Source: Maribacter sedimenticola
Lineage (GTDB): Bacteria > Bacteroidota > Bacteroidia > Flavobacteriales > Flavobacteriaceae
DNA length: 64,000 bases
Reading direction: 5' to 3'
NCBI RefSeq assembly: GCF_900188415.1
Contig: NZ_FZNV01000002.1
Coordinates: 229,339 to 293,338 of the forward strand
Below are positions 1,168 to 21,566 of this stretch, in pieces. The notes under the pieces are model-generated. The model searched no databases. It was not told the DNA's origin and saw only the letters and a list, made by a program, of their open reading frames with translations. Both the position numbers and the translations under genes were made by a program. How positions within the stretch are numbered: position 1 is the first letter of the stretch; every line of letters starts with the position of its first letter.

Positions 1168-1170
1168 ATC

Positions 1171-2940: not shown

Positions 2941-2984
2941 TAAAGGTACAGCTAGGAGGCAATAGGTACAGTAACACTAGTTAC
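2941..2984 (-). promoter_or_regulatory. Crp/Fnr-type operator plus -7 element of the peroxiredoxin gene
   Basis: The palindrome GTAACACTAGTTAC occupies 2971-2984. On the minus strand, 22 bases later, comes the -7 element TACCTTTA (2948-2941), matching the Bacteroidota consensus TAnnTTTG except for the last base. The gene starts 18 bases further on. The same geometry recurs at seven other sites in this window. Confidence 0.75.
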
Positions 2985-3001
2985 ATAGCATAAATAAATC
3001 A

Positions 3002-3044
3002 GAAAAAAAAGGAGGGGTACTTTAGTATAAAAAGTACCCCTCCT
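3002..3044 (-). terminator. Rho-independent terminator of the first CstB-like gene
   Basis: AGGAGGGGTACTTT (3010-3023) pairs perfectly with AAAGTACCCCTCCT (3031-3044) around a 7-base loop. On the minus strand the stem is followed by a run of eight T residues (3009-3002), the classic intrinsic terminator form. Confidence 0.88.
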
Positions 3045-3130
3045 AACATCAACCAAACTGCCGTTAAACAGCATAAAAAACTAAATCAAGTTTTAACATA
3101 ATAAAATATCGTGTCCAATAATAATTTGGA

Positions 3131-4540
3131 CTATAGTGTAGTAGGGCAGATAAAATCTGATACAGGTATTCCTGCTTCTTTTATTGATTTGAATCCTCCT
3201 TTTACATCTATTAGATTATGAATACCTCTACTTTTTAAAATAGATGCCGCAATCATACTTCTGTAACCACCGGCACAGTGTACATAAAACTGTTTCTTTT
3301 CTGGAAATTCTGCTAAATGATCATTTAGGAAATCTAACTGAGTATTTTTTGCATCTAGGATATGTTCAGATAGAAATTCAGATTCTTTACGCACATCAAA
3401 TACAGGTGCTTTTTCAGTTTCAAGAACTTCTTTAAGCTTGTTGGCATCAACTTGGCTAACGGTATCATATTCCATTGCTGCCTTTTTCCAAGCATCAAAA
3501 CCTCCTTCTAAATACCCTAAAGTACCATCAAAACCAACTCTAGAAAGTCTAGTCACTGCCTCTTCTTCCAAACCAACAGGGGTAACCAATAAAATAGGCT
3601 GTTTAACATCGGCTATTAAAGCACCTACCCAAGGAGCAAAGCTACCATCAAGACCAATAAAAATAGAACGTGGTATATGACCAGCCGCAAAATCATCTTG
3701 GTTTCGCACATCTAATACAATGGCACCTGTTTCATTTGCAGCAGCTTCAAAAGCCTTTGGGGAAAGAGCTCTTGTACCACGTTCCAAGACTTCTTTTATA
3801 TCTTCATAACCTTCTTTGTTCAATTTTACGTTTAAAGGAAAATATTGAGGTGGTGGTAGTAAACCATCGATCACTTCATCAATAAACTCTTCTTTGGTCA
3901 TATCTGAACGTAAAGCGTAATTCATTTTCTTTTGGTTGCCCAAGGTATCTACTGTTTCTTTCATCATATTCTTACCACATGCAGAACCGGCACCATGAGC
4001 GGGATAGACGATGACGTCATCTTCTAAAGGCATAATTTTTTCACGTAGACTGTCAAATAAGAATCCGGCTAGGTCACGCTCTGTCAATTCGCCCATTTTC
4101 TGAGCAAGATCAGGTCTGCCCACATCACCTAAAAATAAAGTGTCTCCGCTAAATATAGCATAGTCTTTACCATTGGCATCTCTTAGTAAATATGTGGTAC
4201 TTTCCATTGTATGCCCTGGAGTATGTAATGCAATAATGGTAATATCACCTAATTTAAACTCTTGATTATCTTTTGCTATTATAGCTTCAAAAGACGGATT
4301 TGCTTTTGGTCCGTATATAATATCAGCACCAGTTTCTTTGGCCAAGGTTACATGACCACTAACAAAATCTGCATGAAAATGGGTTTCAAAAATATATTTT
4401 ATGGTAGCGTTATTGGCCCTTGCTTTGTTTATGTAAGGTTGTACTTCCCTTAATGGGTCAATTATGGCAACTTCTCCATTGCTTTCAATGTAATAAGCAC
4501 CTTGCGCCAAACAACCTGTATAAATTTGTTCTACTTTCAT
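3131..4540 (-). CDS. CstB-like persulfide dioxygenase / rhodanese fusion, copy 1
   Basis: The 469-residue protein has three domains: a metallo-beta-lactamase fold dioxygenase (about 1-240), a degenerate rhodanese (about 260-355) and a rhodanese (about 370-465). The dioxygenase keeps His54, His56, Asp58 and His63 of HFHADFVSGH, with Phe where classical HxHxDH enzymes have His, consistent with the mononuclear iron site of ETHE1-type enzymes. The central rhodanese has TPVGLEE where the cysteine loop should be, so it is catalytically dead. The last one has CAGGYRS with Cys422. This layout matches staphylococcal CstB, which oxidises persulfides to sulfite and thiosulfate. It has its own operator and terminator. 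It is a tandem duplicate of the next gene. Confidence 0.87.
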   Translation of the reverse strand: MKVEQIYTGCLAQGAYYIESNGEVAIIDPLREVQPYINKARANNATIKYIFETHFHADFVSGHVTLAKETGADIIYGPKANPSFEAIIAKDNQEFKLGDITIIALHTPGHTMESTTYLLRDANGKDYAIFSGDTLFLGDVGRPDLAQKMGELTERDLAGFLFDSLREKIMPLEDDVIVYPAHGAGSACGKNMMKETVDTLGNQKKMNYALRSDMTKEEFIDEVIDGLLPPPQYFPLNVKLNKEGYEDIKEVLERGTRALSPKAFEAAANETGAIVLDVRNQDDFAAGHIPRSIFIGLDGSFAPWVGALIADVKQPILLVTPVGLEEEAVTRLSRVGFDGTLGYLEGGFDAWKKAAMEYDTVSQVDANKLKEVLETEKAPVFDVRKESEFLSEHILDAKNTQLDFLNDHLAEFPEKKQFYVHCAGGYRSMIAASILKSRGIHNLIDVKGGFKSIKEAGIPVSDFICPTTL

Positions 4541-4562
4541 TATTCAATGATTTAATTATGGT

Positions 4563-4606
4563 CAAAATTACTGGTTGGGCCAATCATGCACAGTAACTAA
4601 AGTTAC
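4563..4606 (-). promoter_or_regulatory. Crp/Fnr-type operator plus -7 element of CstB-like copy 1
   Basis: GTAACTAAAGTTAC lies at 4593-4606 and the -7 element TAATTTTG at 4570-4563 on the minus strand, again 22 bases apart. The start codon follows 22 bases after the -7 element. The perfect GTAAC/GTTAC half sites and a full TAnnTTTG match make this one of the clearest copies. Confidence 0.8.
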
Positions 4607-4617
4607 ATAGGGTAGGG

Positions 4618-4651
4618 GCAAAAAAAAGAGCCCTGTACTTACAAGGCTCTC
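4618..4651 (-). terminator. Terminator of CstB-like copy 2
   Basis: AGAGCCCTGTA pairs with TACAAGGCTCT with one mismatch near 4628-4651. On the minus strand the stem is followed by a run of T residues (4627-4621). It separates the two tandem dioxygenase genes into individual transcripts. Confidence 0.75.
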
Positions 4652-4662
4652 TTTGGTTTAAA

Positions 4663-6078
4663 TTATAATAGTGTTGTGGGGCAGACGTAATCAGATACAG
4701 GAATAGAAGTTTTGGAAATAGCGTCAAATCCACCTTTGACATCGGTAAAATCCTGCCATCCCCTTTGTTTTAAAATAGATGCGGCGATCATGCTCCTGTA
4801 ACCACCCGCACAATGTAGGACAAAAGGTTGGTCCTTTGGAAATTGAGCAAGGTGCTGGTTTATTTCGTTTAAAGGAACATTGATAGCCCCAATAACATGT
4901 TCAGAATCATATTCGCTCTTTTTTCTTACATCGATAACTAAAGGCTTTTTGGTAGCAATTAAATTTTCCAATGTGGTAGCGTCTATTCGATCACTAGTTT
5001 CATATGCCTTATTTGCGCCTTTCCAGGAATCAAATCCACCTTTTAAGAATCCTACCGTATTGTCATATCCAACCCTGGACAGTCTAGTAATAGCTTCCTC
5101 CTCCTTGTCCTTATAGGTTACCAAGAGAATTTCCTGTTTTATATCAGGAATCATTTCACCTACCCATTGGGCAAAACTACCATCCAGTCCTATGTTGATA
5201 CTGTTTGGAATAAAGCCTTTTGCAAAATCTTCCGCATTTCGGGTATCCAGTACCAATGCACCTGTTTCATTGGCTACGGTTTCAAAAGCTTCTGGAGAAT
5301 ATGGCGTAGTTGCCCGATCCATAATTTGATCTAGACTTTCATACCCCTGTATGTTCATAATAACATTTTTGGGGAAATACCCCGGAGGTGTGGTTAAACC
5401 GGTCAACAATTCTTTAATGAACTCTTCCTTGGTCATGTCTGGTCTTAGGGCATAGTTGACCTTCTTTTGATGACCTAAAGTATCCGTTGTTTCCTTGCTC
5501 ATCATTTTACCGCAAGCGGAGCCCGCCCCGTGATTAGGGTAAACGATCAAATCATCATTTAAGGGCATGATTCTATTCCTTAACGAATCGTACAAATGTG
5601 CCGCTAATTTTTCTTCGGTAAGATCGGCCACTACATGCTGTGCTAAATCTGGTCTACCTACATCACCAATAAACAGGGTATCTCCCGTTATCAATCCATG
5701 TTCTTTACCATTTTCATCAATTAAAAGATACGTGGTACTCTCCATGGTATGGCCAGGGGTATGGATAACCTTCACCTTATAATCGCCAACTTCAAATATC
5801 TGATTGTCCCTTGCCGTTGTTGCCTTGTATGCCGGTTTAGCTCCGGGGCCAAATACGATTTCAGCTCCTGCTTTTTTCTGTAGGTCTAAATGTCCGCTGA
5901 CAAAATCTGCATGAAAATGTGTTTCAAAGACATATTTGATTTTTGCATTATCTTTTTTGGCACGTTCCAAATAAGGCTGAACTTCGCGCAATGGGTCAAA
6001 AACTGCGGCTACACCCTTACTTTCTATATAATAGGCAGCGTGTGCCAAACATCCGGTATAAATTTGTTCTACTTTCAT
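4663..6078 (-). CDS. CstB-like persulfide dioxygenase / rhodanese fusion, copy 2
   Basis: This 471-residue protein is closely similar along its whole length to the neighbouring copy and has the same three domains. Metal-site residues are His54, His56, Asp58 and His63 in HFHADFVSGH. The middle rhodanese carries TYKDKEE instead of a cysteine loop and is therefore inactive, while the last has CAGGYRS with Cys423. Both copies also share a C-terminal SDxxCPTTL tail containing an extra conserved cysteine. The predicted reaction is oxygen-dependent oxidation of low-molecular-weight persulfides with sulfur transfer. Each copy has its own promoter, operator and terminator, so the duplication included the control region. 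Different persulfide substrates or oxygen affinities are possible but not visible. Confidence 0.87.
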   Translation of the reverse strand: MKVEQIYTGCLAHAAYYIESKGVAAVFDPLREVQPYLERAKKDNAKIKYVFETHFHADFVSGHLDLQKKAGAEIVFGPGAKPAYKATTARDNQIFEVGDYKVKVIHTPGHTMESTTYLLIDENGKEHGLITGDTLFIGDVGRPDLAQHVVADLTEEKLAAHLYDSLRNRIMPLNDDLIVYPNHGAGSACGKMMSKETTDTLGHQKKVNYALRPDMTKEEFIKELLTGLTTPPGYFPKNVIMNIQGYESLDQIMDRATTPYSPEAFETVANETGALVLDTRNAEDFAKGFIPNSINIGLDGSFAQWVGEMIPDIKQEILLVTYKDKEEEAITRLSRVGYDNTVGFLKGGFDSWKGANKAYETSDRIDATTLENLIATKKPLVIDVRKKSEYDSEHVIGAINVPLNEINQHLAQFPKDQPFVLHCAGGYRSMIAASILKQRGWQDFTDVKGGFDAISKTSIPVSDYVCPTTLL

Positions 6079-6102
6079 GATATAATTGTATTGATTAATA
6101 CC

Positions 6103-6146
6103 TAAAATTACTTGAAGAAAACATGTTGTACAGTGACATTGGTCAC
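6103..6146 (-). promoter_or_regulatory. Crp/Fnr-type operator plus -7 element of CstB-like copy 2
   Basis: GTGACATTGGTCAC lies at 6133-6146, with the -7 element TAATTTTA at 6110-6103 on the minus strand and 22 bases between them. The TGAC/GTCA half sites connect the GTAAC-type boxes of the sulfur genes with the TGAC-type boxes of the cbb3 genes. Confidence 0.75.
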
Positions 6147-6161
6147 ATAAGGAATTTTATT

Positions 6162-6959
6162 TTAAAAAAATTCCATGTAGAAAATAAAGGCCGCCATAAC
6201 AAGAATGAAATAACCAAAACCTTTCTTTAACTTATTGCCGTCAATGAAAGTGCCAAGGTAGCTACCAATAAAGATGCCTATGAGCGAAAGGCCGGTAAAG
6301 AGGAAGAGAAAACTCCAATCTATGAGCATTGTCATAGCATCGCCCAAAAGAAAACCAAGCAAAGATTTTATGGCAATAATGACCAATGAGGTTCCTACGG
6401 CGACTTTCATTTCTACATTTGCCAAAATGACCAATGCGGGTATGATCAAGAAACCGCCACCAGCACCGATCAGTCCTGTAATACCGCCAACCAATAATCC
6501 TTCTAGAAGAATTAACGGATAATTATAGGCAACATCACCTTTAGTTGTTATAACTTTTTCCTTTTTAAGCATGGAGTATGCCGCAGGAATCATTAAAAGT
6601 GCAAATAGGCCGAACATGGCCATTCTCCGGGTAAATTGTAATTGTTCAATTTCAAAGAGGACATCTGGCATTGCTGGAACTACATAATGTCTTACCATAG
6701 TAACACCAATAATGGCAGGTATGCCAAAAACTATGGCGGTACGCCAATCTACATACCCTTTTAAATGTTGTTGCCAGCCTCCAACAAGCGCACTGGCCCC
6801 TACAGTAAATAGAGAGTAGGCCGTGGCAGCTTTTTCATTGATGGTAAACAGATAGGCCAGAACAGGTACGGCCAAAATAGAACCGCCACCGCCAATGAGT
6901 CCTAATGAAATGCCAATGACCAAGGCGCTGAAGTATCCAATAATGTGCAATATTTCCAT
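6162..6959 (-). CDS. TauE/SafE family sulfite/anion exporter
   Basis: The 265-residue protein is almost entirely hydrophobic with about seven or eight membrane spans and two internal repeats, each with a glycine-rich start (SLGLIGGGGSIL near residue 19 and GLIGAGGGFLI near 160). This is the signature of the TauE/SafE (TSUP) family, which exports sulfite, sulfoacetate or related organic anions. Next to two persulfide dioxygenases whose product is sulfite, sulfite export is the natural reading; this is contextual inference. The gene lies after the Crp/Fnr gene but has its own operator and promoter. A weak AT-rich hairpin overlaps its stop codon. Confidence 0.87.
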   Translation of the reverse strand: MEILHIIGYFSALVIGISLGLIGGGGSILAVPVLAYLFTINEKAATAYSLFTVGASALVGGWQQHLKGYVDWRTAIVFGIPAIIGVTMVRHYVVPAMPDVLFEIEQLQFTRRMAMFGLFALLMIPAAYSMLKKEKVITTKGDVAYNYPLILLEGLLVGGITGLIGAGGGFLIIPALVILANVEMKVAVGTSLVIIAIKSLLGFLLGDAMTMLIDWSFLFLFTGLSLIGIFIGSYLGTFIDGNKLKKGFGYFILVMAAFIFYMEFF

Positions 6960-6977
6960 GATATTTTTTTAATACCA

Positions 6978-7021
6978 CAAAAGTATTGCGGGTGCCTGTC
7001 CTTGGCAGTAACAATGGTTAC
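6978..7021 (-). promoter_or_regulatory. Crp/Fnr-type operator plus -7 element of the TauE/SafE gene
   Basis: GTAACAATGGTTAC lies at 7008-7021, beginning 8 bases beyond the stop codon of the crp/fnr-type gene. The -7 element TACTTTTG (6985-6978, minus strand) is 22 bases away and matches TAnnTTTG fully. The box is identical in sequence to that of the DUF983-regulator operon. Confidence 0.8.
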
Positions 7022-7028
7022 AGAGGCA

Positions 7029-7661
7029 CTATAATTGAATTATTTCCAAATAATTTCTATGAAGTTTTATTTTGCCCATTTCCTCTAATTTTTTTAATAG
7101 TCTAGAGATCACCACCCTAGAGCTGTGTAGGTCGTAAGCAATTTCCTGATGCGTGTTATGTATGATATCATCTTTGGTAACCCTGGCCTTCTCCTTTAAG
7201 TAGCCTACCAAGCGTTCGTCCATTTTTTGAAAAGCGATGCTATCCAAAGTACTCAAAAGCTCGTTCAATCTTTCGTGGTAACTATTGAATACGAAGTTGC
7301 GCCATGATTTGTATTTGGCCGTCCATTCCTCCATTTTTTGAATGGGCACCATTATCAACTTTGCATTGGTTTCGGCAATGGCCCTTATTTCACTTTTTGC
7401 ATCGTTTATGCAGCATGCCATGGTCATGGAGCAGGTGTCTCCCTTTTCAAGATAGTATAGCAATAACTCATCCCCATCCTCATCCTCCCTTAAAATCTTA
7501 ATAGCTCCAGATATGAGAAGGGGCATACCCCTTAAATAATCACCTATTTCAATTAATTTAAAACCTTCGGGGACCTCTTTAAAAGTACCTACCTGAACAA
7601 TTTCATTGATTAGTTCATTTTCAAAAATAGTTCCGTACTGTTCTTTTAAATCCTGTATCAT
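7029..7661 (-). CDS. Crp/Fnr family transcriptional regulator
   Basis: This 210-residue protein has an N-terminal cyclic-nucleotide-binding-type beta barrel (about 20-120), a dimerisation helix and a C-terminal winged helix (about 150-210) with recognition helix SSRVVISRLLKK (180-191). It lacks the N-terminal cysteine cluster of Fnr, so it has no visible Fe-S site. Three cysteines (77, 83, 84) in the barrel could sense thiol or sulfur species, which is speculation. By eye, Val183 stands where Fnr has its DNA-contacting Glu209, consistent with a site other than TTGAT. It is co-transcribed with the DUF983 gene (7-base gap) behind an operator, suggesting autoregulation, and is the likely regulator of eight nearby promoters. 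Confidence 0.9.
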   Translation of the reverse strand: MIQDLKEQYGTIFENELINEIVQVGTFKEVPEGFKLIEIGDYLRGMPLLISGAIKILREDEDGDELLLYYLEKGDTCSMTMACCINDAKSEIRAIAETNAKLIMVPIQKMEEWTAKYKSWRNFVFNSYHERLNELLSTLDSIAFQKMDERLVGYLKEKARVTKDDIIHNTHQEIAYDLHSSRVVISRLLKKLEEMGKIKLHRNYLEIIQL

Positions 7662-7668
7662 ATCAATT

Positions 7669-8058
7669 TTAGTTAACGTTCTGTGCTATTTTCTTGTCAA
7701 ATTTAAAAAAGAAATTGGCCCAAATAATCTTAGAGACTGCGGCAATCCATGGCATTGCCAATACCAAGGCAACAACAATCAACGTAAACAATGTACCTAT
7801 GCTTGTCTGTAGGCCAAAAAGTAAGGTCAGCATGTAAACTGCAACCGCTACGGCAATACCAACAGCATACGAGACATACATGGACCCCGTATAGAAACTG
7901 GGTTCTATGCTATACTTTAAATCGCACTTGGGACAGTGTTTTTTCACCTTGTTGAAGTTACTTAATTTATAGGGATTGGCTTCTAAAAATTCCCCTTTAT
8001 GACATCTAGGACACTTAATAAAAAGTATACTATATAGTTTGGTACCCTTTAATAGCAT
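7669..8058 (-). CDS. DUF983 family zinc-ribbon membrane protein
   Basis: The product of 129 residues begins with a zinc ribbon made of CPRC (Cys16, Cys19) and CPKC (Cys42, Cys45), followed by two membrane helices (about 55-105). This is the DUF983 pattern, common in Bacteroidota and often near terminal oxidase genes; its function is not established. The start at 8058 is chosen over an upstream ATG at 8112. The upstream one lies inside the operator, while 8058 gives a 12-base leader after the predicted promoter like its neighbours. It is the first gene of a two-gene operon with the Crp/Fnr regulator. Confidence 0.82.
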   Translation of the reverse strand: MLLKGTKLYSILFIKCPRCHKGEFLEANPYKLSNFNKVKKHCPKCDLKYSIEPSFYTGSMYVSYAVGIAVAVAVYMLTLLFGLQTSIGTLFTLIVVALVLAMPWIAAVSKIIWANFFFKFDKKIAQNVN

Positions 8059-8075
8059 ATGATTAAAATTTAGAG

Positions 8076-8119
8076 CAAAGTTATTGGATTGCACTTTTTG
8101 ATAACGTAACAATGGTTAC
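8076..8119 (-). promoter_or_regulatory. Crp/Fnr-type operator plus -7 element of the DUF983-crp/fnr operon
   Basis: GTAACAATGGTTAC lies at 8106-8119 and the -7 element TAACTTTG at 8083-8076 on the minus strand, 22 bases apart. Because this operon encodes the presumed regulator, the box predicts autoregulation. Confidence 0.8.
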
Positions 8120-8183
8120 ACAAGGCCTTGGTTAAGTTGATATCCCAAAAAATCAAAATTAACGGCCAGTACCCAATATGAAA

Positions 8184-8227
8184 CTGATAAAAGTCATATT
8201 ATTTTTTAGGATGGGTACATAAGTTTG
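8184..8227 (+). promoter_or_regulatory. Degenerate Crp/Fnr-type operator plus -7 element of hemN
   Basis: CTGATAAAAGTCAT (8184-8197) fits TGAY-N4-GTCA with one changed base. Exactly 22 bases later comes TAAGTTTG (8220-8227), a full TAnnTTTG match. The hemN start is 17 bases further on. The weaker palindrome but exact spacing suggests a lower-affinity member of the same regulon. Confidence 0.65.
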
Positions 8228-8244
8228 TAGTAAAATCAAATACT

Positions 8245-9606
8245 ATGTGTTCGCTTGTTCAAAAATATAATGTACCAGGCCCTAGGTATACCAGTTACCC
8301 AACCGTACCATTTTGGGATATTTCTACATTTTCCGGTAAAAAATGGGAAGAAACGGTCAAAAAAAGCTTTCATGCGAGCAATTCAACTACGGGTATAAGC
8401 CTTTATATCCATCTGCCTTTTTGTGAAAGCATGTGTACCTTCTGTGGTTGTCATAAACGTATAACCAAGAGGCATGATGTGGAATTACCCTATCTTAAAT
8501 CCGTTATTAAGGAATGGCGACTTTATACAGCGTTGTTCGATGATAGGCCAATAATCAAAGAACTTCATTTGGGTGGTGGTACACCAACCTTCTTTTCACC
8601 AGAAAACTTAAAATTTCTCATAGAGGGAATTCTAAGGATAGCGAACAAGGCTACAGATGCCTCCTTTAGTTTTGAAGGTCATCCCAACAATACCACCAAG
8701 GAACATTTACAGGCATTATACGATGTAGGATTTAGAAGGGTCAGTTTTGGGGTACAGGATTACAATGAAACCGTACAAAAAGCAATTAATAGGATACAAC
8801 CTTTTGAAAATGTACGTAACGTTACCCAATGGTCCAGGGAAATAGGGTATGAGTCCGTGAGCCATGATATCATCTTTGGATTGCCACATCAAAAATTGGA
8901 ACATGTGGTACACACTATTGAAAGAACCAAGGAATTAAAACCAGATAGGATCGCTTTTTACAGTTATGCCCATGTGCCTTGGTTGGCGGGTAATGGTCAA
9001 CGGGGATATAATGATGCAGATCTCCCGGCGGGCGATGAAAAAAGGGCCCAGTATGAAATGGGTAAAAAAATGTTGCAGACCAGTGGGTATCAAGAAATAG
9101 GTATGGATCACTTTGCATTGGAGACAGATGCATTGTACCAGGCTATGGTAACGGGCAGCTTGCACAGGAATTTTATGGGGTATACCAGCTCCAATACCCA
9201 TTTAATGATTGGTTTGGGTGCATCCAGTATTAGTGATAGTTGGTACGGATTTGCGCAGAACGTTAAGAATGTTGAAGAATATCAAAATTTGGTGAACAAC
9301 AATATTATACCCTTGTATAGGGGTCATATTTTAACTGAAGAAGACCAAATTATACGTAGACATATCTTAAATTTAATGTGCCAGTTCAAGACTTCTTGGA
9401 GCGCTTTTAAATTACACTTGCCCCAAATGGACAGTATATTGGAAAGATTGAGTGAGCTAGCGGAAGACGGTATAGTTGAAATTACGGAAGGTAACTTAAA
9501 GATAACCGAAAAGGGAAGACCTTTTGTGCGGAATGTTTGTATGGCATTTGATTTACCATTGCAAAAGAAAGCACCGGAAACAAAGTTGTTTTCAATGACC
9601 GTTTAA
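8245..9606 (+). CDS. hemN: Oxygen-independent coproporphyrinogen III oxidase
   Basis: HemN is a radical SAM enzyme that decarboxylates coproporphyrinogen III to protoporphyrinogen IX without oxygen, in the cytoplasm. The 453-residue protein has the N-terminal PGPRYTSYPT motif of true HemN proteins and the cluster motif with Cys60, Cys64, Cys67 and Cys69 (CESMCTFCGC), which separates HemN from HemW-like relatives. A GGGTP motif follows near residue 114. Length and ends fit the family. It diverges from the DUF983-regulator operon, and has its own -7 element with an operator-like site at the usual distance. Haem supply under low oxygen matches the downstream cbb3 oxidase. The universal stress gene follows after 44 bases and may be co-transcribed. 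Confidence 0.95.
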   Translation: MCSLVQKYNVPGPRYTSYPTVPFWDISTFSGKKWEETVKKSFHASNSTTGISLYIHLPFCESMCTFCGCHKRITKRHDVELPYLKSVIKEWRLYTALFDDRPIIKELHLGGGTPTFFSPENLKFLIEGILRIANKATDASFSFEGHPNNTTKEHLQALYDVGFRRVSFGVQDYNETVQKAINRIQPFENVRNVTQWSREIGYESVSHDIIFGLPHQKLEHVVHTIERTKELKPDRIAFYSYAHVPWLAGNGQRGYNDADLPAGDEKRAQYEMGKKMLQTSGYQEIGMDHFALETDALYQAMVTGSLHRNFMGYTSSNTHLMIGLGASSISDSWYGFAQNVKNVEEYQNLVNNNIIPLYRGHILTEEDQIIRRHILNLMCQFKTSWSAFKLHLPQMDSILERLSELAEDGIVEITEGNLKITEKGRPFVRNVCMAFDLPLQKKAPETKLFSMTV

Positions 9607-9650
9607 GAAGTAACTTAGATAACATAAAATGAACTTCAAATAACAAAATC

Positions 9651-10472: not shown

Positions 10473-10494
10473 CTCTAACCACATCTATAAACAA

Positions 10495-10528
10495 AAATAA
10501 ATCCAAGGCATATGCCTTGGGTTTATTT
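10495..10528. terminator. Bidirectional terminator between usp and haloperoxidase genes
   Basis: AAATAAATCCAAGGCA (10495-10510) and TGCCTTGGGTTTATTT (10513-10528) form a long, almost perfect palindrome with A/T-rich ends. It lies between two convergent genes and should stop both transcripts. Confidence 0.8.
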
Positions 10529-10552
10529 ATTTAATGTATTTCCTGTAAAATT

Positions 10553-12004: not shown

Positions 12005-12068
12005 TAGTTTGGTTATTAGACTATTGAACAAGAATCAAATATACTAAAGTGAGTTAAAGATTTTAAAT

Positions 12069-12557: not shown

Positions 12558-12575
12558 GGTTTGGAATATTGGAAA

Positions 12576-13280: not shown

Positions 13281-13286
13281 TTTTTA

Positions 13287-13733: not shown

Positions 13734-13748
13734 GGTGATTTTATTTTG

Positions 13749-15167
13749 CTATTTATAACTGCGTGGTGCCAAAAAGCGCGCTGTAGTGGTCTCTATTAAT
13801 TTATCCTTACTGTAAACCCCTATCTTAAGGTTGTTCTTATCGCCGCTTAAGACCGCTGCATTTATCTCTATAAACAACGTACCTTCTGCCAAGGCTTCTG
13901 GTTGTACGTCAAAATTTTCATGGCGTACCAGTTTAATTTCACCTTTTGGAGATATTAATTTAAAATGAACGTCCTCAACCGTTTTAGTGGTTTTGTTCAG
14001 CAATTTGTAGGTATACACATTACTGATGATGTTTCCTTCTTTATGTTCGTACAGTTGCCCTGGTAGCCTTAGAATATTTGCTTCAAGGTCGTTTCTCAGG
14101 AACATCATACCTATTAGTACCCCTGTCAATATAATCAGTACGGCGGTATACCCTTTTAAACGTGGCGTAAACTTAAATTTCTCCTTTTTGGTAATTTCAT
14201 CTTCACTGGCATAACGGATCAAACCTTTTGGTAGGTTTACTTTTTCCATGATGGTATCGCATTCATCAATACATGCCGTACAATTAACACATTCCAACTG
14301 AGTTCCGTTTCTGATGTCTATTCCCGTTGGACAAACGTTTACACATTGAAAACAGTCTATGCAATCACCATGGCCAAGTGCTTCACGGTCTTCGTTCTTA
14401 CGCCATTTTTTTCTTCCATTTTCAGCCTCACCACGTTTGTGGTCATAGGCAACAACAATTGATTTGTTGTCCAATAGTACTCCTTGCATACGTCCATAAG
14501 GACAGGCAATGATGCAAACTTGTTCCCTAAACCAAGCAAAGACAAAATAAAACACGGCCGTGAAAATCAACAAAGAGATCATTGTGCTTATATGCTGTGC
14601 CGGTCCGTCAGTAATGTATTGTATCAATCGGTCACTACCAATCAGATAAGCAAGAAACACATTCGCAATAATAAAGGATATGATAAAAAAGATGCTCCAT
14701 TTAATCACTCTTTTTCTAATTTTTTCAGCGTTCCATTCCTGTCTGTCCAATCGCATTTGGGCACCACGGTCACCATCTATCCAATATTCAATTCTACGAA
14801 AGACCATTTCCATAAATATGGTCTGTGGACACATCCATCCACAAAAAATACGGCCAAATGCAACGGTAAACAATGCAATGAAGACCACCCCAATGATCAT
14901 GGAGATTACAAATAGGTGAAAATCTTGAGGATAAAATGGAAAACCAAAAATATTAAAACGTCTTTCCAGGACATTGAACATTAAAAATTGGTTGCCGTTA
15001 ATTTTGATAAAAGGGGACAAGATCAAGAATGCAAGGAGTCCATAGCTAACATATTTACGGTACTGGTAAAACTTGCCGCTGGGTTTTTTTGGAAATACCC
15101 AAGCCCGTTTACCATCTTCCTTTATGGTGCCTATAGAATCCCTGAAATGATCTTGATCTTGTGACAT
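13749..15167 (-). CDS. ccoG: cbb3 oxidase accessory ferredoxin-like protein CcoG
   Basis: CcoG (FixG, RdxA) is a membrane-bound iron-sulfur protein thought to reduce copper for the oxidase active site. The 472-residue protein has several membrane helices, a conserved CGWMCPQ motif in the N-terminal half, and two tandem 4Fe-4S motifs, CIDCFQCVNVCP and CVNCTACIDEC, in the middle. After the last helix a periplasmic immunoglobulin-like domain (about 360-472) completes the family layout. It lies between ccoP (46-base gap) and ccoH. Family and role in the cbb3 locus are secure; the biochemical role comes from studied homologues. Confidence 0.93.
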   Translation of the reverse strand: MSQDQDHFRDSIGTIKEDGKRAWVFPKKPSGKFYQYRKYVSYGLLAFLILSPFIKINGNQFLMFNVLERRFNIFGFPFYPQDFHLFVISMIIGVVFIALFTVAFGRIFCGWMCPQTIFMEMVFRRIEYWIDGDRGAQMRLDRQEWNAEKIRKRVIKWSIFFIISFIIANVFLAYLIGSDRLIQYITDGPAQHISTMISLLIFTAVFYFVFAWFREQVCIIACPYGRMQGVLLDNKSIVVAYDHKRGEAENGRKKWRKNEDREALGHGDCIDCFQCVNVCPTGIDIRNGTQLECVNCTACIDECDTIMEKVNLPKGLIRYASEDEITKKEKFKFTPRLKGYTAVLIILTGVLIGMMFLRNDLEANILRLPGQLYEHKEGNIISNVYTYKLLNKTTKTVEDVHFKLISPKGEIKLVRHENFDVQPEALAEGTLFIEINAAVLSGDKNNLKIGVYSKDKLIETTTARFLAPRSYK

Positions 15168-15213
15168 ACTATTTTTCTTTACTGCATTTGGGAGGTATGG
15201 CCCTCCATCAATA

Positions 15214-16170
15214 TTAGTTCATAGTAACCGATGCCGAGTCTATTGCGATTTCAGGTACATCAGTTTCTACCGGAGCTTTCTGGGCCGGAGCATTGGGATC
15301 TGCCCATATATCTCCTTCCGGTGCTTTAGGGTTTGCAGGTGTAGTGCCTTGAAAACTCAGTACATAACTTGCAACCTGGGCTATCTCTGCTGGTTTTAGA
15401 TTTTGTTTCCAAGCGATCATACCCTTACCATCACGTCCACCTTCGGAAATGGTGTTGAACACATTTTTAATGCCTCCGCCAAGAATCCAATTCTGATCGG
15501 TCAGGTTAGGACCTATACCACCGCCACCATCTGCCATATGGCAGGCCACGCAATTACTTTCAAATATGCCTTTACCGGCATTAAGGTCGCCGGCATCGGT
15601 CAATAGTTCTACCGTGCTGGCGTCTACAAGGCCTTTAGCCGTTTTTTTGTATTCTTCAATTTCCAATTGGGCTGCTGCAACTTCTTGCTCGTATTCCAAT
15701 TTTTGGTCGTAATCGTTAAAGACATGAAAACGCAATAGGTAAACCACACCAAATACTATTGATGCATAGAACAGGTATACCCACCAAGGTGGTAAGTTAT
15801 TGTCCAGTTCTCGTATACCGTCATAATTATGGTCAAGTATAATTTCCTCTTCAGACTCTATAGGCTTGCTGCCCAACATTTTGGCATACATCTTTTTGCC
15901 CCATGTCCATTCCCATTTTTTATTTTTTTCTGCCAGATACCGTAGTTTGGCTTCTTCATCCAAGGTGTTGAACAATACGTTTTCTATAGCCTGAACAATA
16001 AATGCAATGGCCAATAGTAACAGTAAAATCAAGGCCATAAAGCCGAACATCATAGTAGGGTAGGCAATGAAAGCCGGTTTATCGCCACTTTCTATATAAA
16101 TCTCCATAAGTACAACGACCATAAAAAAGGCCACTGTTATTCTAAACCACCAAGCTGTATTATTTTTCAT
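15214..16170 (-). CDS. ccoP: cbb3 oxidase cytochrome c subunit CcoP, single-haem form
   Basis: CcoP passes electrons from the quinol side to the oxidase. The 318-residue protein has N-terminal membrane helices (about 8-25, 36-64 and 130-149) and a cytochrome c domain whose haem motif CVACH spans residues 207-211. Only one CxxCH is present, whereas the classic proteobacterial CcoP carries two; the long segment between helices 2 and 3 holds no second motif. The C-terminal tail is rich in Pro and Ala. The start ATG overlaps the ccoQ stop by four bases, suggesting translational coupling. Confidence 0.92.
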   Translation of the reverse strand: MKNNTAWWFRITVAFFMVVVLMEIYIESGDKPAFIAYPTMMFGFMALILLLLLAIAFIVQAIENVLFNTLDEEAKLRYLAEKNKKWEWTWGKKMYAKMLGSKPIESEEEIILDHNYDGIRELDNNLPPWWVYLFYASIVFGVVYLLRFHVFNDYDQKLEYEQEVAAAQLEIEEYKKTAKGLVDASTVELLTDAGDLNAGKGIFESNCVACHMADGGGGIGPNLTDQNWILGGGIKNVFNTISEGGRDGKGMIAWKQNLKPAEIAQVASYVLSFQGTTPANPKAPEGDIWADPNAPAQKAPVETDVPEIAIDSASVTMN

Positions 16171-16358
16171 AGGTCTTTATTTTGTTGGTTATCTTCTTCT
16201 AAGGGTAATTCGCTAACTTCTTTGATATATGATTTAGAGGCTGTTATTACCCACCAAAACAAGAGGGTGAAAAAAACAAAGAATATGAGCAATGATATCA
16301 TGGGGTAGGTTGCTACACCATCTATGGTTTCCATGTAACCTTTTACAAATTTGAACAT
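16167..16358 (-). CDS. ccoQ: cbb3 oxidase small subunit CcoQ
   Basis: This 63-residue protein has one membrane helix (about 20-42) followed by an acidic tail. In this position between ccoNO and ccoP it corresponds to CcoQ/FixQ, a small subunit that stabilises the oxidase. It starts 5 bases after the ccoNO stop and overlaps ccoP by four bases. Sequence conservation of CcoQ is weak, so the call rests mostly on size, topology and position. Confidence 0.8.
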   Translation of the reverse strand: MFKFVKGYMETIDGVATYPMISLLIFFVFFTLLFWWVITASKSYIKEVSELPLEEDNQQNKDL

Positions 16359-16363
16359 GTTTT

Positions 16364-18568
16364 TTAGTTTTCGTTATCAGATAATAATTCGCCAGTTTCC
16401 TTAATTTTAATATCCGTACCCAATCGTTGTAGGTAGGCTATTAAGGATACAATTTCACGGTCTCTCATTTCTGTAAATTCCTCACCGTTTTCTGCCGCAT
16501 ATTTTTTATCGGCCTCATAGGTTCTTGCAAAGTCAGGATCACTATATAGGTTTTGTTCTATTTTTTCCGCTTGTGCATCCATCATGGCATTGGCGTTTGC
16601 AATGTCTTCTTCTGTATAAGGAACACCAAGAGTAACCATAGCTTCCATTTTTGCTTGAATATCGCTTCTATCATGCTTATTACGTACCAACCACGCATAT
16701 GCAGGCATAATGGAGCCAGATGATGTACTTTGTGGGTCATACATGTGGTTCAAGTGCCAGTTATCGGAATATTTACCACCAACCCTTAATAAATCTGGTC
16801 CTGTACGCTTACTTCCCCATAAGAAAGGATGGTCATAAACAAATTCACCGGCTTTGGCATATTCGCCATAACGTTCAACCTCACTTCTAAAAGGACGAAC
16901 CATTTGTGAATGGCAACTTACACAGCCCTCTCTAATATATAGGTCACGACCTTCCAATTCTAAGGGTGTATAAGGTTTTACACTGGTAATGGTCGGTATA
17001 TTGGACTTCACCAATATGGTAGGTACAATCTGTATGATACCACCGATCAATATGGCAATAGTAGCCAAAATGGTCAATTGAATTGGTTTACGCTCTAACC
17101 AAGTATGGAATGTTTCACCGGCCGTTCTTCTTTTTGAAACCTTTGTAAGGGCAGCAGCTTCTGCCAATTCGTCTTCTATGACACTACCGGCTTTAATGGT
17201 TCGTACTACATTGTAAACCATTACGATTGCACCAACTATATAAAGACTGCCACCAATGGCACGCATCCAATACATAGGCATAATTTCGTTTACGGTTTCC
17301 AAGAAGTTTCCATACACTAAAGTGCCATCAGGATTAAAATCTTTCCACATTAGGGCCTGTGTAAATCCGGCAACGTACATTGGTAAGGCATAAAGTATAA
17401 TACCAAGTGTACCGATCCAGAAGTGGAAGTTGGCCAATGGGGTAGAGAATAATTTCTTCTTGGTCATTTTTGGAACCAACCAATAGATCATACCAAAGGT
17501 CAAGAAACCGTTCCAAGCCAAGGCACCTACATGAACATGGGCAATAATCCAATCACTGAAGTGGGCAATGGCATTTACATTTTTAAGGGATAGCATAGGA
17601 CCTTCAAAAGTGGCCATACCGTAACCGGTAATTGCGACAACCATAAACTTTAGGACCGGATCGGTACGCACTTTGTCCCAAGCACCACGTAAGGTTAACA
17701 ATCCGTTGATCATACCGCCCCATGATGGAGCCAAAAGCATGACCGAAAAAGCTACTCCTAGGTTTTGGGCCCAATCTGGTAGAGCGGAATATAATAAGTG
17801 GTGAGGACCGGCCCAGATATAAATAAAAATCAATGACCAGAAATGTACAATGGACAGTCTGTATGAATACACCGGTCTGTTCGCAGCTTTGGGAACAAAA
17901 TAGTACATAAGCCCTAAAAAGGGAGTAGTAAGGAAAAATGCCACGGCATTATGCCCATACCACCATTGTACCAAAGCATCTTGTACCCCAGCGTATACGG
18001 AATAACTTTTTAGTGCCGTTACAGGTAATTCTAAACTATTGAAAATATGTAGTACTGCTACAGTAACAAATGTTGCCAAGTAAAACCATATGGCCACATA
18101 CAGGTGGCGCTGTCTTCTTTTGATCATGGTGCCTATAAGGTTAATACCAAAAGCTACCCATACCAATGCAATGGCTATATCTATGGGCCATTCCAGCTCT
18201 GCATATTCCTTAGAACTAGTATAACCCAACGGAAGGGTAATAGCGGCGGCTACAATGATCAATTGCCATCCCCAGAAATTAAATTTGCTGAGAAAATCAC
18301 TGTACATACGGGCTTTTAACAATCGTTGTGTAGAGTAGTAGACTCCCGCGTAAATGGCATTTCCTACAAATGCAAAGATTACCGCGTTGGTATGCAGCGG
18401 GCGTAAACGACCAAAACTTAACCATGATATACCGTCGGTTAAATTTGGAAACATGAACATGAAGGCCAATAATAAGCCTACAGACATACCCACAATACCC
18501 CAGAACATGGTTGCATAAAGGAAATTTTTCACGATTTTGTTATCGTAATAAAACTGCTGTACTTCCAT
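16364..18568 (-). CDS. ccoNO: Fused cbb3 cytochrome oxidase subunits I and II (CcoN-CcoO)
   Basis: This 734-residue protein joins the catalytic haem-copper subunit CcoN (about 1-480) to the monohaem cytochrome c subunit CcoO (about 500-734). CcoN has about twelve helices, the copper-site PHH in IWAGPHHLLY and the haem-ligand pair in IIAHVHVGALAW. CcoO has the haem motif CVSCH near residues 550-554 followed by QMVRPFRSE, the CcoO signature. The CcoNO fusion is usual in Bacteroidota. The enzyme reduces oxygen to water at very low oxygen while pumping protons. The gene starts about 110 bases after ccoS, with only a T-rich stretch between, so it is probably transcribed from the ccoS promoter. Confidence 0.95.
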   Translation of the reverse strand: MEVQQFYYDNKIVKNFLYATMFWGIVGMSVGLLLAFMFMFPNLTDGISWLSFGRLRPLHTNAVIFAFVGNAIYAGVYYSTQRLLKARMYSDFLSKFNFWGWQLIIVAAAITLPLGYTSSKEYAELEWPIDIAIALVWVAFGINLIGTMIKRRQRHLYVAIWFYLATFVTVAVLHIFNSLELPVTALKSYSVYAGVQDALVQWWYGHNAVAFFLTTPFLGLMYYFVPKAANRPVYSYRLSIVHFWSLIFIYIWAGPHHLLYSALPDWAQNLGVAFSVMLLAPSWGGMINGLLTLRGAWDKVRTDPVLKFMVVAITGYGMATFEGPMLSLKNVNAIAHFSDWIIAHVHVGALAWNGFLTFGMIYWLVPKMTKKKLFSTPLANFHFWIGTLGIILYALPMYVAGFTQALMWKDFNPDGTLVYGNFLETVNEIMPMYWMRAIGGSLYIVGAIVMVYNVVRTIKAGSVIEDELAEAAALTKVSKRRTAGETFHTWLERKPIQLTILATIAILIGGIIQIVPTILVKSNIPTITSVKPYTPLELEGRDLYIREGCVSCHSQMVRPFRSEVERYGEYAKAGEFVYDHPFLWGSKRTGPDLLRVGGKYSDNWHLNHMYDPQSTSSGSIMPAYAWLVRNKHDRSDIQAKMEAMVTLGVPYTEEDIANANAMMDAQAEKIEQNLYSDPDFARTYEADKKYAAENGEEFTEMRDREIVSLIAYLQRLGTDIKIKETGELLSDNEN

Positions 18569-18677
18569 AATTATACTTGTTTATTTAGTTGGATTTTATT
18601 TTTATTGAATGGAGAACAGAGAGAAAAGAAATTAGAGAACAGACTCTTGTTAATTTGCAAATGTCCTACACGTTTAA

Positions 18678-18854
18678 TCATTTACTCTTTACTTTACTTT
18701 TTTTAGGTTTAACCAGTTCGTCCTCAAAAAGCATGCGAACAGAAGGGGTGTAAGAGTCATCGTATTGGCCGTGCCTGACCGAAATGATAAAAGCGATAAA
18801 AAAGATGATTGCCACTACCAGGCTAATCGTCAATAACACATAAATTACACTCAT
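18678..18854 (-). CDS. ccoS: cbb3 oxidase maturation protein CcoS
   Basis: CcoS is a short membrane protein needed for insertion of haem and copper into the cbb3 oxidase. This 58-residue reading frame begins MSVIYVLLTISLVVAI with one hydrophobic helix (about 3-25). It continues with GQYDDSYTPSVRMLFED, the family pattern of a Gly-Gln-(Tyr/Phe)-Asp-Asp motif followed by an acidic end, and closes with lysines. It is the first gene after an operator and -7 element, 50 bases from the box to the ATG, and lies directly upstream of ccoNO. Its short length makes it easy to miss. Confidence 0.88.
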   Translation of the reverse strand: MSVIYVLLTISLVVAIIFFIAFIISVRHGQYDDSYTPSVRMLFEDELVKPKKSKVKSK

Positions 18855-18873
18855 ACCTAATTGAATTATGCTG

Positions 18874-18917
18874 TAAAATTAGGAGTGGAAAAGCCCTTAG
18901 AAAATGACATTTGTCAT
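18874..18917 (-). promoter_or_regulatory. Crp/Fnr-type operator plus -7 element of the ccoS-ccoNOQP operon
   Basis: ATGACATTTGTCAT (18904-18917) is a perfect 14-base palindrome. The -7 element TAATTTTA (18881-18874, minus strand) is 22 bases away and ccoS starts 20 bases further on. The rest of 18918-19104, up to the ccoI stop, holds no gene that I can see. Confidence 0.78.
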
Positions 18918-19104
18918 ACTTTATTATTTTCCGTGTACAACCGTATTTTCGGGTTTGAAAAATATAAACCACGTGTTGTTATATTGCTTTAAATCAATAA
19001 TTTAGGGTAATGTAAAAATTCAGATTAGTTAAAAACTAAAGGAGTGAAGAATTGATTTTTTATTAAAAATAAATTGAATACCCCAATTGGGTTAGTGTTC
19101 AATT

Positions 19105-21501
19105 TTAAGAAAGTTTTCTTCCTAAAAGATTGGTCATTATCGTCGTAAACACAACTATACTTATAGAGCTTAGCGGCATTAAGATTGCTGCAATAACTGG
19201 CTCTAATTGCCCGGTGACGGCAAAGTAGAGGCCTATACAATTATAGAGCAAGGATAGTACAAAACTCATTTTAATTATTTGTATTGACTTTCTGGATGCT
19301 AGGATATATTGATATAACTGTTGAAATTTGGAAGCATCTAAAATTGCATCACATGCGGGGGAGAATACATTGATGTTTTCTGATATGGCAATGCCTACAT
19401 TACTTTGGGCTAAGGCACCGGCATCATTTAGTCCATCACCAACCATCAACACTTTTTTTCCTTGATCCTGTAAAGTTTTGATGAAATTAAGTTTTGTTTC
19501 CGGTTTTTGGTTAAAATACAACGGGGTCAGTTTAGGAAGTAGTGCCTCTAGGCGTTCTTTTTCACCCTCATTATCACCTGACAGGATTGCTAGATTCAAT
19601 GTTTCTGACATGTTCTTGAAAACGGAGGACAACCCTTCGCGATACTGATTATGAAAAACGTAGCGCCCTTTATACGCATTGTTGGAGCTGATATAAATTG
19701 AGGTATCCATTAAATTTTCAGTAGTAAACTTACCCACAAAATTTGCTGAACCAATTTTCATTTTAATATCGTCTTTTGAGCTCTTTAGCCCATTACCAAT
19801 ATGTTCTTCGTATTCATCTAACGTTATGATATCCTGTTCTTTAAGAAGGTCATATAAAGATCTGCTTAAAGGATGGTTAGAGGCCCTAATGGTATTTTTC
19901 AATATAGATTCCTCATCAGGTGTTAAAGGCATACCCTCATAGTGCGCCGTACTTTTTTGTGTGGTCGTAATCGTCCCTGTTTTATCAAATATTGCAGTAT
20001 CTATCTTGGCCAATTGTTCAATGGTCTGCGTATTTTTTATATAGAATTTTTTCTTCCCAAAAATACGGAGCATGTTGCCAAGTGTAAAAGGAGAGGCCAA
20101 TGCTATTGCGCAAGGACATGCAATGATCAATACCGCGGTAAATACGTTCAAGGCTTTACCGGGGTCATAAAAAAGCCAGAATGCCGTGGCTAAAAAAGCA
20201 ATGGATAGTACCCCAATGGTAAATCGTTTGCCAATACTGTCCGTAAGGTTTTGGAATGCGGTAGCCTTATCCGTTTTAAAGACTGCATTGCCCCATAGCT
20301 GGGTTAAATAGCTTTGGGAAACGGATTTGGAGGCAATCATTTCTATGACCCCGCTCAATTGTTTTCCGCCTGCAAAAATTTGTTCTCCAATTTTTTTTGA
20401 TACCGGTTCTGACTCTCCTGAAACAAAACTGTAATCTATTTGCGCATTGCCATAGGTAAGCTTGCCGTCGACCGGAATCATTTCTTCATTTCTGATTAAA
20501 ATTCTATCACCTTTGGCAATTTCCTGTACGGGTACCGTTTCTTCCTTTCCATTAGGGGTTAGGCGAGTTATGGCTATGGGAAAATAAGATTTGTAATCTC
20601 GCTCAAAGGACAAAAAGCTATAGGTGCGCTGTTGGAAGAATTTACCAAGTAGGAGAAAGAATACCAACCCGGTAAGCGAGTCAAAAAATCCGCTGCCAAG
20701 GTTAAAGGTTATATCAAACGTGCTTCTAAGAAAAAGAACTACGATGCCAAGGGCAATGGGTACATCAATATTTAAGATTTTGGCACGTAAGCCTTTAAAG
20801 GCGGATACAAAATAATCACTTGCGGCATAGAAAACCACTGGTAACGAGAAAACAAACATGAGCCAACGGAATACATCTTGATATTTGTTCAGCCAGTATT
20901 CTCCCCCAGAAGCGGCGCTAGAGCCTAGGTCAAAATATTCCGGAAAGGATAGGAACATGACATTCCCAAATGCAAATCCGGCTACGCCCAGCTTATAGAG
21001 CAGACTTTTATCCGTTGTTTTTTTACTGCCCTCAAAATCCTCTAAGGATATGTAAGGTTCATAGCCAATTTTTGCCAATAGCAATACCAGTTCCTTTAAA
21101 CTAATGCCTTCCTGCTTGTACGTAACCCGAATAGTTTTTTGTGGAAAATCTACTTGAGAATTGGTTACCTGTGGGTTTAGCTTGTTTAAATTCTCCAATA
21201 TCCAGATACAGGAGCTACAATGAATGGTAGGGATGTAAAGGTTTACGATCTGTACGGCACCATCATTAAACTCCGTTAACCTAGATATGATTTCTTCGTT
21301 ATCAAGGAAATCATATTTACCTTCTATAGCTTTAGGTGTTGTACCCGCAGCCTCCTGCAGGTCGTAATAGTATGAGAGATCGTTACTGCTAAAGATTTCA
21401 TAGACCGTTTTACATCCTGCACAACAAAAAGGTTTTTCGTCAAATGTAATTGGCGTACCCGTGCATGTATCCCCGCAATGAAAACAATTTGTAGTCTGCA
21501 T
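19105..21501 (-). CDS. ccoI: Copper-transporting P1B-type ATPase of the cbb3 locus (CcoI)
   Basis: CcoI moves copper across the membrane for the cbb3 binuclear centre. The 798-residue protein has an N-terminal cysteine-rich segment (Cys6, Cys9, Cys13, Cys26, Cys27, Cys30), as in the heavy-metal ATPases of oxidase clusters. An HMA domain with CSSC (95-98) follows, then membrane helices, the ion-channel motif ACPCA near 461-465 and the phosphorylation motif DKTGTIT near 505, with GDGLND later. It is upstream of ccoS on the same strand, but 250 bases and a second operator separate them, so the two units are probably transcribed independently under the same control. Confidence 0.94.
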   Translation of the reverse strand: MQTTNCFHCGDTCTGTPITFDEKPFCCAGCKTVYEIFSSNDLSYYYDLQEAAGTTPKAIEGKYDFLDNEEIISRLTEFNDGAVQIVNLYIPTIHCSSCIWILENLNKLNPQVTNSQVDFPQKTIRVTYKQEGISLKELVLLLAKIGYEPYISLEDFEGSKKTTDKSLLYKLGVAGFAFGNVMFLSFPEYFDLGSSAASGGEYWLNKYQDVFRWLMFVFSLPVVFYAASDYFVSAFKGLRAKILNIDVPIALGIVVLFLRSTFDITFNLGSGFFDSLTGLVFFLLLGKFFQQRTYSFLSFERDYKSYFPIAITRLTPNGKEETVPVQEIAKGDRILIRNEEMIPVDGKLTYGNAQIDYSFVSGESEPVSKKIGEQIFAGGKQLSGVIEMIASKSVSQSYLTQLWGNAVFKTDKATAFQNLTDSIGKRFTIGVLSIAFLATAFWLFYDPGKALNVFTAVLIIACPCAIALASPFTLGNMLRIFGKKKFYIKNTQTIEQLAKIDTAIFDKTGTITTTQKSTAHYEGMPLTPDEESILKNTIRASNHPLSRSLYDLLKEQDIITLDEYEEHIGNGLKSSKDDIKMKIGSANFVGKFTTENLMDTSIYISSNNAYKGRYVFHNQYREGLSSVFKNMSETLNLAILSGDNEGEKERLEALLPKLTPLYFNQKPETKLNFIKTLQDQGKKVLMVGDGLNDAGALAQSNVGIAISENINVFSPACDAILDASKFQQLYQYILASRKSIQIIKMSFVLSLLYNCIGLYFAVTGQLEPVIAAILMPLSSISIVVFTTIMTNLLGRKLS

Positions 21502-21522
21502 AGTTATTGCTAAAACTTATAT

Positions 21523-21566
21523 CAAAGATGAAAATGATGACATTTTAATACTATGACATTTGTCAG
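21523..21566 (-). promoter_or_regulatory. Crp/Fnr-type operator plus -7-like element of ccoI
   Basis: ATGACATTTGTCAG (21553-21566) matches 13 of 14 bases of the ccoS box. CATCTTTG (21530-21523, minus strand), with C in place of the first T of TAnnTTTG, is 22 bases away, and ccoI starts 22 bases beyond it. A second half site ATGACATTTT lies beside the box at 21535-21544. Confidence 0.72.

Follow-up and report, generated by a model that had tools for sequence, protein, structure and literature searches.

In this study, we analyzed a 64-kb stretch of the 4.27-Mb genome of Maribacter sedimenticola (GCF_900188415.1, contig NZ_FZNV01000002.1; the whole stretch is called the window below), in which eight promoters of persulfide-handling and cbb3/hemN genes carry a 14-bp palindrome of the Crp/Fnr type. 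The first-pass annotation had read the eight palindromes as one shared operator, and the genes behind them as one regulon joining persulfide removal to cbb3 respiration under the Crp/Fnr protein encoded at 7029-7661.

Genes and operators in the window

The proposed activator of the sulfur genes, a sulfur-linked Crp/Fnr regulator of 210 aa, is encoded on the reverse strand at 7029-7661 and is recognized by its domains (PF00027, PF13545 and PF00325, all above cut-off), conservation and synteny. Its gene probably comes second in an operon that begins with a DUF983 protein (7669-8058, reverse; PF06170). The operator of this probable operon (8106-8119, reverse; -7 element TAACTTTG at 8076-8083) is of the form GTAAC-N4-GTTAC, hereafter the GTAAC class, and a box with a -7 element also stands upstream of the operon in relatives. 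On the same strand, a TauE/SafE-type exporter (6162-6959; PF01925) has a GTAAC-class operator at 7008-7021 with the -7 element TACTTTTG at 6978-6985. It is followed by two CstB-like genes, predicted from their domains (PF00753 and two PF00581 stretches each) to encode persulfide dioxygenase (PDO)-rhodanese enzymes. CstB-like gene 1 (4663-6078, reverse) is preceded by GTGAC-N4-GTCAC at 6133-6146 (-7 element TAATTTTA at 6103-6110), an operator intermediate between the GTAAC and FNR classes, which has the GTAAC or a mixed form in several relatives. CstB-like gene 2 (3131-4540, reverse) has a GTAAC-class operator at 4593-4606 (-7 element TAATTTTG at 4563-4570), supported by the scan for box and spacing and by relatives. 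The last GTAAC-class operator, at 2971-2984 with TACCTTTA at 2941-2948, precedes a peroxiredoxin with AhpC-TSA and 1-Cys C-terminal domains (2261-2929, reverse; PF00578, PF10417; NF009668 above cut-off).

The remaining three boxes are of the FNR class. The gene for a HemN-type radical SAM protein (8245-9606, forward; PF04055, PF06969), a divergent neighbour of the DUF983-crp operon, follows the box CTGATAAAAGTCAT at 8184-8197 (forward) and the -7 element TAAGTTTG at 8220-8227. On the reverse strand, the reading frame 18678-18854, assigned by its translation and start, encodes a 58-aa protein that we take to be CcoS from its position before ccoNO; its box ATGACAAATGTCAT lies at 18904-18917 and its -7 element TAATTTTA at 18874-18881. 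A CcoI-type P-type ATPase (19105-21501, reverse; PF00122, PF00702, PF12156) has the box CTGACAAATGTCAT at 21553-21566 and the -7 element CATCTTTG at 21523-21530.

All eight palindromes reported by the first-pass annotation were recovered at their coordinates. The strict pattern RTRAC-N4-GTYAY occurs exactly six times in the window (12 strand hits), each time at one of these eight boxes, and in all six a TAnnTTT(G/A) element follows on the coding strand after exactly 22 bp, with no match to the -7 element at any other spacing from 5 to 59 bp. The degenerate boxes of hemN (8184) and ccoI (21553) also keep exactly 22 bp, in agreement with the fixed spacing proposed earlier. The distance from the -7 element to the start codon, given before as 17-22 bases, in fact ranges from 11 (peroxiredoxin, first ATG) to 24 (CstB-like gene 1). 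In the available text of a study on Flavobacterium psychrophilum (PMC9723704), the flavobacterial sigma-A -7 box TAnnTTTG occupies positions -12 to -5. A spacing of 22 bp would thus put the 14-bp box at -48 to -35, with its centre at -41.5, the class II activator position, as the first-pass annotation had suggested.

Two operator classes in related genomes

Three samples of Crp loci were used: a named set of 80 flavobacterial loci (the best 80 listed, to which all counts for named loci refer), 40 family/order loci and 40 class-level loci. Among the matches listed, the nearest named Crp is 90% identical and comes from a Maribacter. A separate cco/hemN set of 79 loci was scanned for operator class at ccoI, ccoS, hemN and fnr starts. 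A start was scored as GTAAC class with at most one mismatch and as FNR class with no mismatch to the degenerate pattern; some genomes are counted more than once in these scores, and the misses probably include operon-internal genes.

When all 1024 five-base half-sites were ranked with a -7 element at 22 bp in the named loci, GTAAC scored 147 and the next half-site, ATGAT, scored 9; spacings of 10-40 bp other than 22 scored at most 5. In 40 Crp-centred loci from 36 relatives we found 83 exact GTAAC palindromes (166 strand hits), with the -7 element at 22 bp in 69, at 21 bp in 3 and at 23 bp in 2, and three control palindromes gave no exact site in the same loci.

Both box classes recur in relatives, in front of almost completely separate sets of genes. 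The GTAAC class was found at 82 of 123 PDO starts (11 GTGAC, 1 FNR class and 29 neither), 19 of 30 SQR starts (3 GTGAC, 1 FNR class), 13 of 15 peroxiredoxin starts (1 GTGAC), 46 of 70 TauE starts and, in the family/order loci, 11 of 11 DUF983 starts. In the cco/hemN set it occurred at none of the 41 ccoI, 38 ccoS and 41 fnr starts; the FNR class was present at 29/41 ccoI, 35/38 ccoS, 31/37 hemN and 25/41 fnr starts. Two of the 37 hemN starts scored as GTAAC class, with the -7 element 93 and 95 bases from the start; they were rejected as hemN operators, their position being that expected for the divergent DUF983 operator. Within the genus and in G036, the ccoI, ccoS, hemN and fnr boxes are mostly (A/C)TGA(C/T)-N4-(G/A)TCA(T/G) at 22 bp from the -7 element, that is, essentially FNR boxes at -41.5, with drift towards forms such as CTGATAAATATCAT among relatives.

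Gene neighbourhood divides along the same line. At least one of PDO, TauE, SQR and YeeE lies near Crp in 71/80 named, 31/40 family/order (including L090, counted only by a 24% SQR-like match) and 19/40 class-level loci, and cco/hemN genes in 1/80, 3/40 and 1/40, respectively; in some members of the genus, a long distance separates the cco/hemN genes from Crp. Two genomes without Crp, G006 and G032, each have three scattered GTAAC sites and a single retained PDO homologue of 59-60% identity. FNR boxes are retained there without the sulfur Crp, before ccoI, ccoS and hemN in G032 and before hemN in G006. Where Crp is present, much of the GTAAC total lies within about 35 kb of it: 8/12 sites in G001, 9/11 in G007, 11/15 in G014, 11/16 in G026, 3/4 in G012 and at least 8/15 in G033, for which the site listing gives lower bounds.

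In three relatives' loci, the GTAAC-class box of CstB-like gene 1 is preceded, 43 bp further upstream, by a second box of the ATGAC class (L072:7739, L074:6963, L075:12925), an arrangement that suggests a dual oxygen and sulfide input.

GTAAC sites in the genome and the cluster upstream of the window

In a whole-genome scan with reversed patterns as control, the loose consensus RTRAC-N4-GTYAY was not enriched (62 sites vs 186 for the control) and was discarded as a genome-wide marker. The exact palindrome GTAAC-N4-GTTAC was found 12 times, and eight of these sites fall in one 16-kb stretch (binomial P ~2e-17, for a stretch picked after the sites had been seen). Nine of the twelve have a -7 element at 22 bp, one of them, TTACTTTG before YeeE, with a mismatch: the eight in the 16-kb cluster and one at C19:42365 before a PDO-like gene. 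The other three have no -7 element at that distance. Since GTAAC totals per genome are mostly not above control, the case rests on clustering and spacing.

The region just upstream (L016, C11:212000-231999) contains more boxes 22 bp from -7 elements. They precede an SQR-type oxidoreductase gene (Pyr_redox_2; SQR models matched only below cut-off), a fatty-acid-hydroxylase-family gene, genes for a DsrE-family protein and a ferritin-like Dps, and cydAB, whose box GTAACCTTTGTAAC (L016:11416) is near-perfect GTAAC class. The respiration gene with the sulfur operator is cytochrome bd, not cbb3; a GTAAC-class box was found at 7 of 12 cydA starts in named loci. A box also precedes a YeeE/YedE pair of the sulphur transport family, the -7 element of which has the single mismatch given above. 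Divergent from the DsrE gene lies a SoxA/TsdA-like cytochrome c gene (L016:13021-14058), possibly thiosulfate-related, whose -7 element at 22 bp is poor (TAGATTCG). Before the fatty-acid-hydroxylase-family gene, which has the GTAAC class at 15 of 34 starts in relatives, an ATGAC palindrome and a GTAAC-class box lie 30 bp apart (L016:17223, 17267).

At the other end of the cluster, a single-domain rhodanese (1831-2175, reverse; PF00581) lies 3' of the peroxiredoxin gene, and no box of its own was found at this locus. Genes for a CopZ-like metal-binding protein and a Tll0287-like protein (window 898-1812) are also inside the cluster, without own boxes, and are often syntenic.

The regulator and its recognition helix

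The protein encoded at 7029-7661 belongs to the Crp/Fnr superfamily by its three domain matches, and it scored 50.7 bits against the cAMP-CRP equivalog NF008732, vs a cut-off of 266. FNR, the oxygen-responsive 4Fe-4S regulator, is defined by an N-terminal cysteine cluster; the only cysteines here are at positions 77, 83 and 84. In FNR, a Glu of the recognition helix contacts the G of the half-site. The helix of this regulator, SSRVVISRLL, has Val183 where the aligned FNR-type paralogues have Glu, and among 160 aligned homologues the residue is Val in 133 and Glu in 27. Two other Crp/Fnr proteins of this genome, L021 and L022, have Glu in the helix.

The residue correlates with the operator. 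Outside the named set, an exact GTAAC palindrome was present in 37 of 53 Val-type loci vs 1 of 27 Glu-type loci (Fisher p 7e-9). In a second comparison, the third base of the half-site was left free and boxes before sulfur genes were collected from 45 loci, which gave 28 sites with at most two mismatches. At least one half-site had G as its third base in 16/17 Glu-type sites vs 1/11 Val-type sites (p 9e-6), and the G:A ratio per half-site was 21:12 vs 1:18 (p 3e-5). That residues 180 and 181 track operator bases is a rule reported in 2005, as given in the available text of Rodionov et al. (PMC1274295).

In G013, a second Crp copy (L102:9670, G013:C61) has lost all three cysteines, carries a Glu helix and has an ATGAC-class box before its own gene.

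The missing fnr gene

Among 33 genus relatives with a ccoI match, 32 have an FNR-like gene divergent from ccoI; in the remaining one, G031, the two lie on different contigs. No ccoI-linked fnr was found in this genome, where window positions 21502-21793 contain the intact ccoI FNR box, followed by rpiA. The best matches to fnr in this genome are L021 (32%) and L022 (28%), the latter a receiver-Crp (receiver-cNMP-Crp) fusion. L021 (G000:C12:658593) has five cysteines, three of them in CTRCTNTNC, as well as the Glu helix, and 12 of 35 genus relatives have a counterpart that is 74-77% identical. L021 is the likely replacement for the lost fnr and a possible cbb3 regulator in this genome. Past the 3' end of the L022 fusion gene, we also noted an FNR-like box, ATGACATTTATCAT (L022:1143, near G000:C11:200047), which has TACTTTTA at a distance of 22 bp.

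Discussion

Our results argue, with good probability, for two Crp/Fnr regulons that lie side by side and have a common promoter geometry but separate operators and regulators, the 7029-7661 Crp acting on the GTAAC class. The earlier proposal of one shared operator does not hold, in that the two classes separate almost completely in relatives. The part that assigned peroxiredoxin, both CstB-like genes, TauE and the regulator's own operon to this Crp is supported by sequence evidence, whereas hemN, ccoS and ccoI, which had been included as well, carry FNR-type boxes. We infer that the Crp binds GTAAC-N4-GTTAC near -41.5 as a dedicated activator of sulfide and persulfide oxidation, with predicted targets comprising the SQR-type gene, the CstB-like PDO-rhodanese genes, tauE, peroxiredoxin, yeeE/yedE, cydAB and its own DUF983 operon. 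The likeliest trigger of activation would be reactive sulfur, through a reaction with Cys77, Cys83 and Cys84. SQR would then oxidize sulfide, the persulfide would be oxidized further and the products exported, and electrons could reach the bd oxidase. On the other hand, ccoS, ccoI and hemN would answer to an oxygen-type FNR through their FNR boxes; with the ccoI-linked fnr gone, the FNR-like paralogue L021 may take its place.

A single regulon for all eight sites was rejected because the operator classes differ and FNR boxes stay where Crp is absent. It is still conceivable, though improbable, that in this genome the Crp activates the sulfur and the cbb3/hemN genes alike, perhaps having taken over the FNR boxes after fnr was lost. 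The 22-bp geometry common to all boxes, the absence of the ccoI-linked fnr, the intermediate GTGAC-N4-GTCAC box of CstB-like gene 1 and the divergent position of hemN next to the DUF983-crp operon would all fit such an arrangement. However, in the cco/hemN boxes the third base stays G and the first is mostly A or C, unlike in GTAAC; these boxes persist in G032 without the sulfur Crp, some genus members have the two loci unlinked, and the Glu-helix proteins L021 and L022 are still encoded in this genome. A different explanation, quite improbable in our view, is that the Crp is an HcpR2-type regulator of nitrosative stress (NO/heme), the regulon of which happens to include sulfur genes. According to the available text of Rodionov et al. 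(2005, PMC1274295), HcpR2 has the operator consensus GTAACnnnnGTTAC, carries Pro at position 181 and controls hcp, and the authors tied the loss of Glu181 to the change of motif. The same consensus is found in this genome and in relatives' loci, and the present regulator, also of the Crp/Fnr family, likewise lacks Glu181. It differs in having Val rather than Pro at that position and sulfide oxidation genes as predicted targets; a search for hcp (PF03063) found no copy in this genome and gave hits in just 2 of the 60 genomes covered, and sulfur genes are nearby in 71/80 named loci. We thus set it apart from HcpR2 as published: the operator matches, but hcp and the residue do not.

Several observations weigh against two cleanly separated regulons. 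The number of exact GTAAC sites in the genome is not enriched (12 vs 16 for the reversed control), and some genomes with Crp have few sites (4 in G012, 5 in G036, 7 in G046). None of the four sulfur gene types is nearby in 9/80 named, 9/40 family/order and 21/40 class-level loci, and in the named loci 20/71 PDO, 12/40 TauE and 11/26 YeeE starts have neither class, although some of these may be operon-internal. One PDO start and one SQR start score as FNR class, and the cydA box was found at none of the single family-level start and the five class-level starts. At the order level, most of the ccoI and hemN starts tested lack an FNR box at 22 bp. The GTGAC box of CstB-like gene 1 and the ATGAC box seen upstream of it in relatives leave room for cross-talk. 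As to the helix, G is accompanied by A in the other half-site at 10 of the 16 Glu-type sites that have it, so that these are mixed, and L096 is Glu-type yet has a GTAAC box. Relatedness weakens the p-values, some loci being near-identical; an average of 3.5 of 5 independent pairs followed the expected direction, with none going the opposite way, and because the tree (101 rows, including 20 of the 80 named loci) needs only five residue changes, this test cannot reach 0.05.

The signal is the less certain step. Sulfur-gene neighbours and conserved cysteines point to reactive sulfur: among the 160 homologues Cys77 is conserved in 159, Cys83 in 150 and Cys84 in 137, and in 3dv8, a distant solved structure, cysteines likewise align with positions 77 and 83. 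Against this, the argument draws on conservation, and the 80/80 score for Cys77 in the named sequences is biased, since one pattern used to collect them required it. We give about an even chance to activation by reactive sulfur at these cysteines. It is rather unlikely that the regulator instead uses them to respond to oxygen, to peroxide or to thiol oxidation in general, with the sulfide genes as part of a redox response, which would change the signal step only. Cysteine switches often react with several oxidants, and the box precedes the peroxiredoxin gene and, in this genome, also that for Dps. But the most widespread neighbours are PDO, TauE, YeeE and SQR rather than oxidative-stress genes. 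The odds seem similarly balanced for a broader proposal, that a Bacteroidia-wide Crp/Fnr branch consists of reactive-sulfur-sensing activators with a Cys-x5-Cys-Cys persulfide switch in the effector domain, whose operator was retuned between GTGAC-like and GTAAC several times by a single Glu/Val exchange, with the same kind of targets and the 22-bp geometry kept.

FNR/ANR-type regulons control the cbb3 oxidase and hemN, and the ccoI, ccoS, hemN and fnr boxes described here are likewise FNR-like at the class II position; the differences are the flavobacterial -7 promoter and the ccoI-linked fnr missing from this genome. For reactive sulfur, FisR is a sigma-54 activator of sqr/pdo, similar as an activator of sulfide oxidation genes but unrelated in protein and promoter type. 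CstR, of the CsoR type, is a reactive-sulfur repressor, and such repressors work by cysteine chemistry. BigR, SqrR and SoxR, of the ArsR type, have been described, in the text available for them, as reactive-sulfur repressors of persulfide-handling genes. All four control such genes, as proposed here, but they are repressors from other protein families, whereas the class II site suggests an activator. In the literature, the available text of PMC8510549 places cbb3 under a predicted FNR and does not contain the word 'sulfide', and that of PMC13370916 connects HcpR of Bacteroides thetaiotaomicron with hcp and nrfA. No such Crp/Fnr sulfide regulon appeared among the open-access full-text matches listed, several queries for which did not force the terms Crp and Fnr, and no dedicated persulfide-handling regulator for these bacteria was among the literature matches listed. 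What is novel here is the sulfur part, a probable regulon for sulfide oxidation under a Crp/Fnr protein, whose operator changes along with a single residue of the recognition helix.

If the broader proposal is true, this branch would stand beside BigR, SqrR, CstR and FisR as their equivalent in the Crp/Fnr family. A PDO-type gene was found in 53 of 60 related genomes searched. Our analysis gives a candidate regulator, an exact operator and a gene list, together with natural experiments in the form of the Glu/Val exchange and of genomes that lack both the regulator and the operator cluster. It further separates two regulons that had plausibly been taken for one, and it provides an example of an operator and a regulator that vary together while the promoter geometry stays fixed. 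Finally, bd-type oxidases resist sulfide, and the presence of cydAB in the sulfur regulon suggests that these bacteria may pair sulfide oxidation with the bd oxidase rather than with cbb3.

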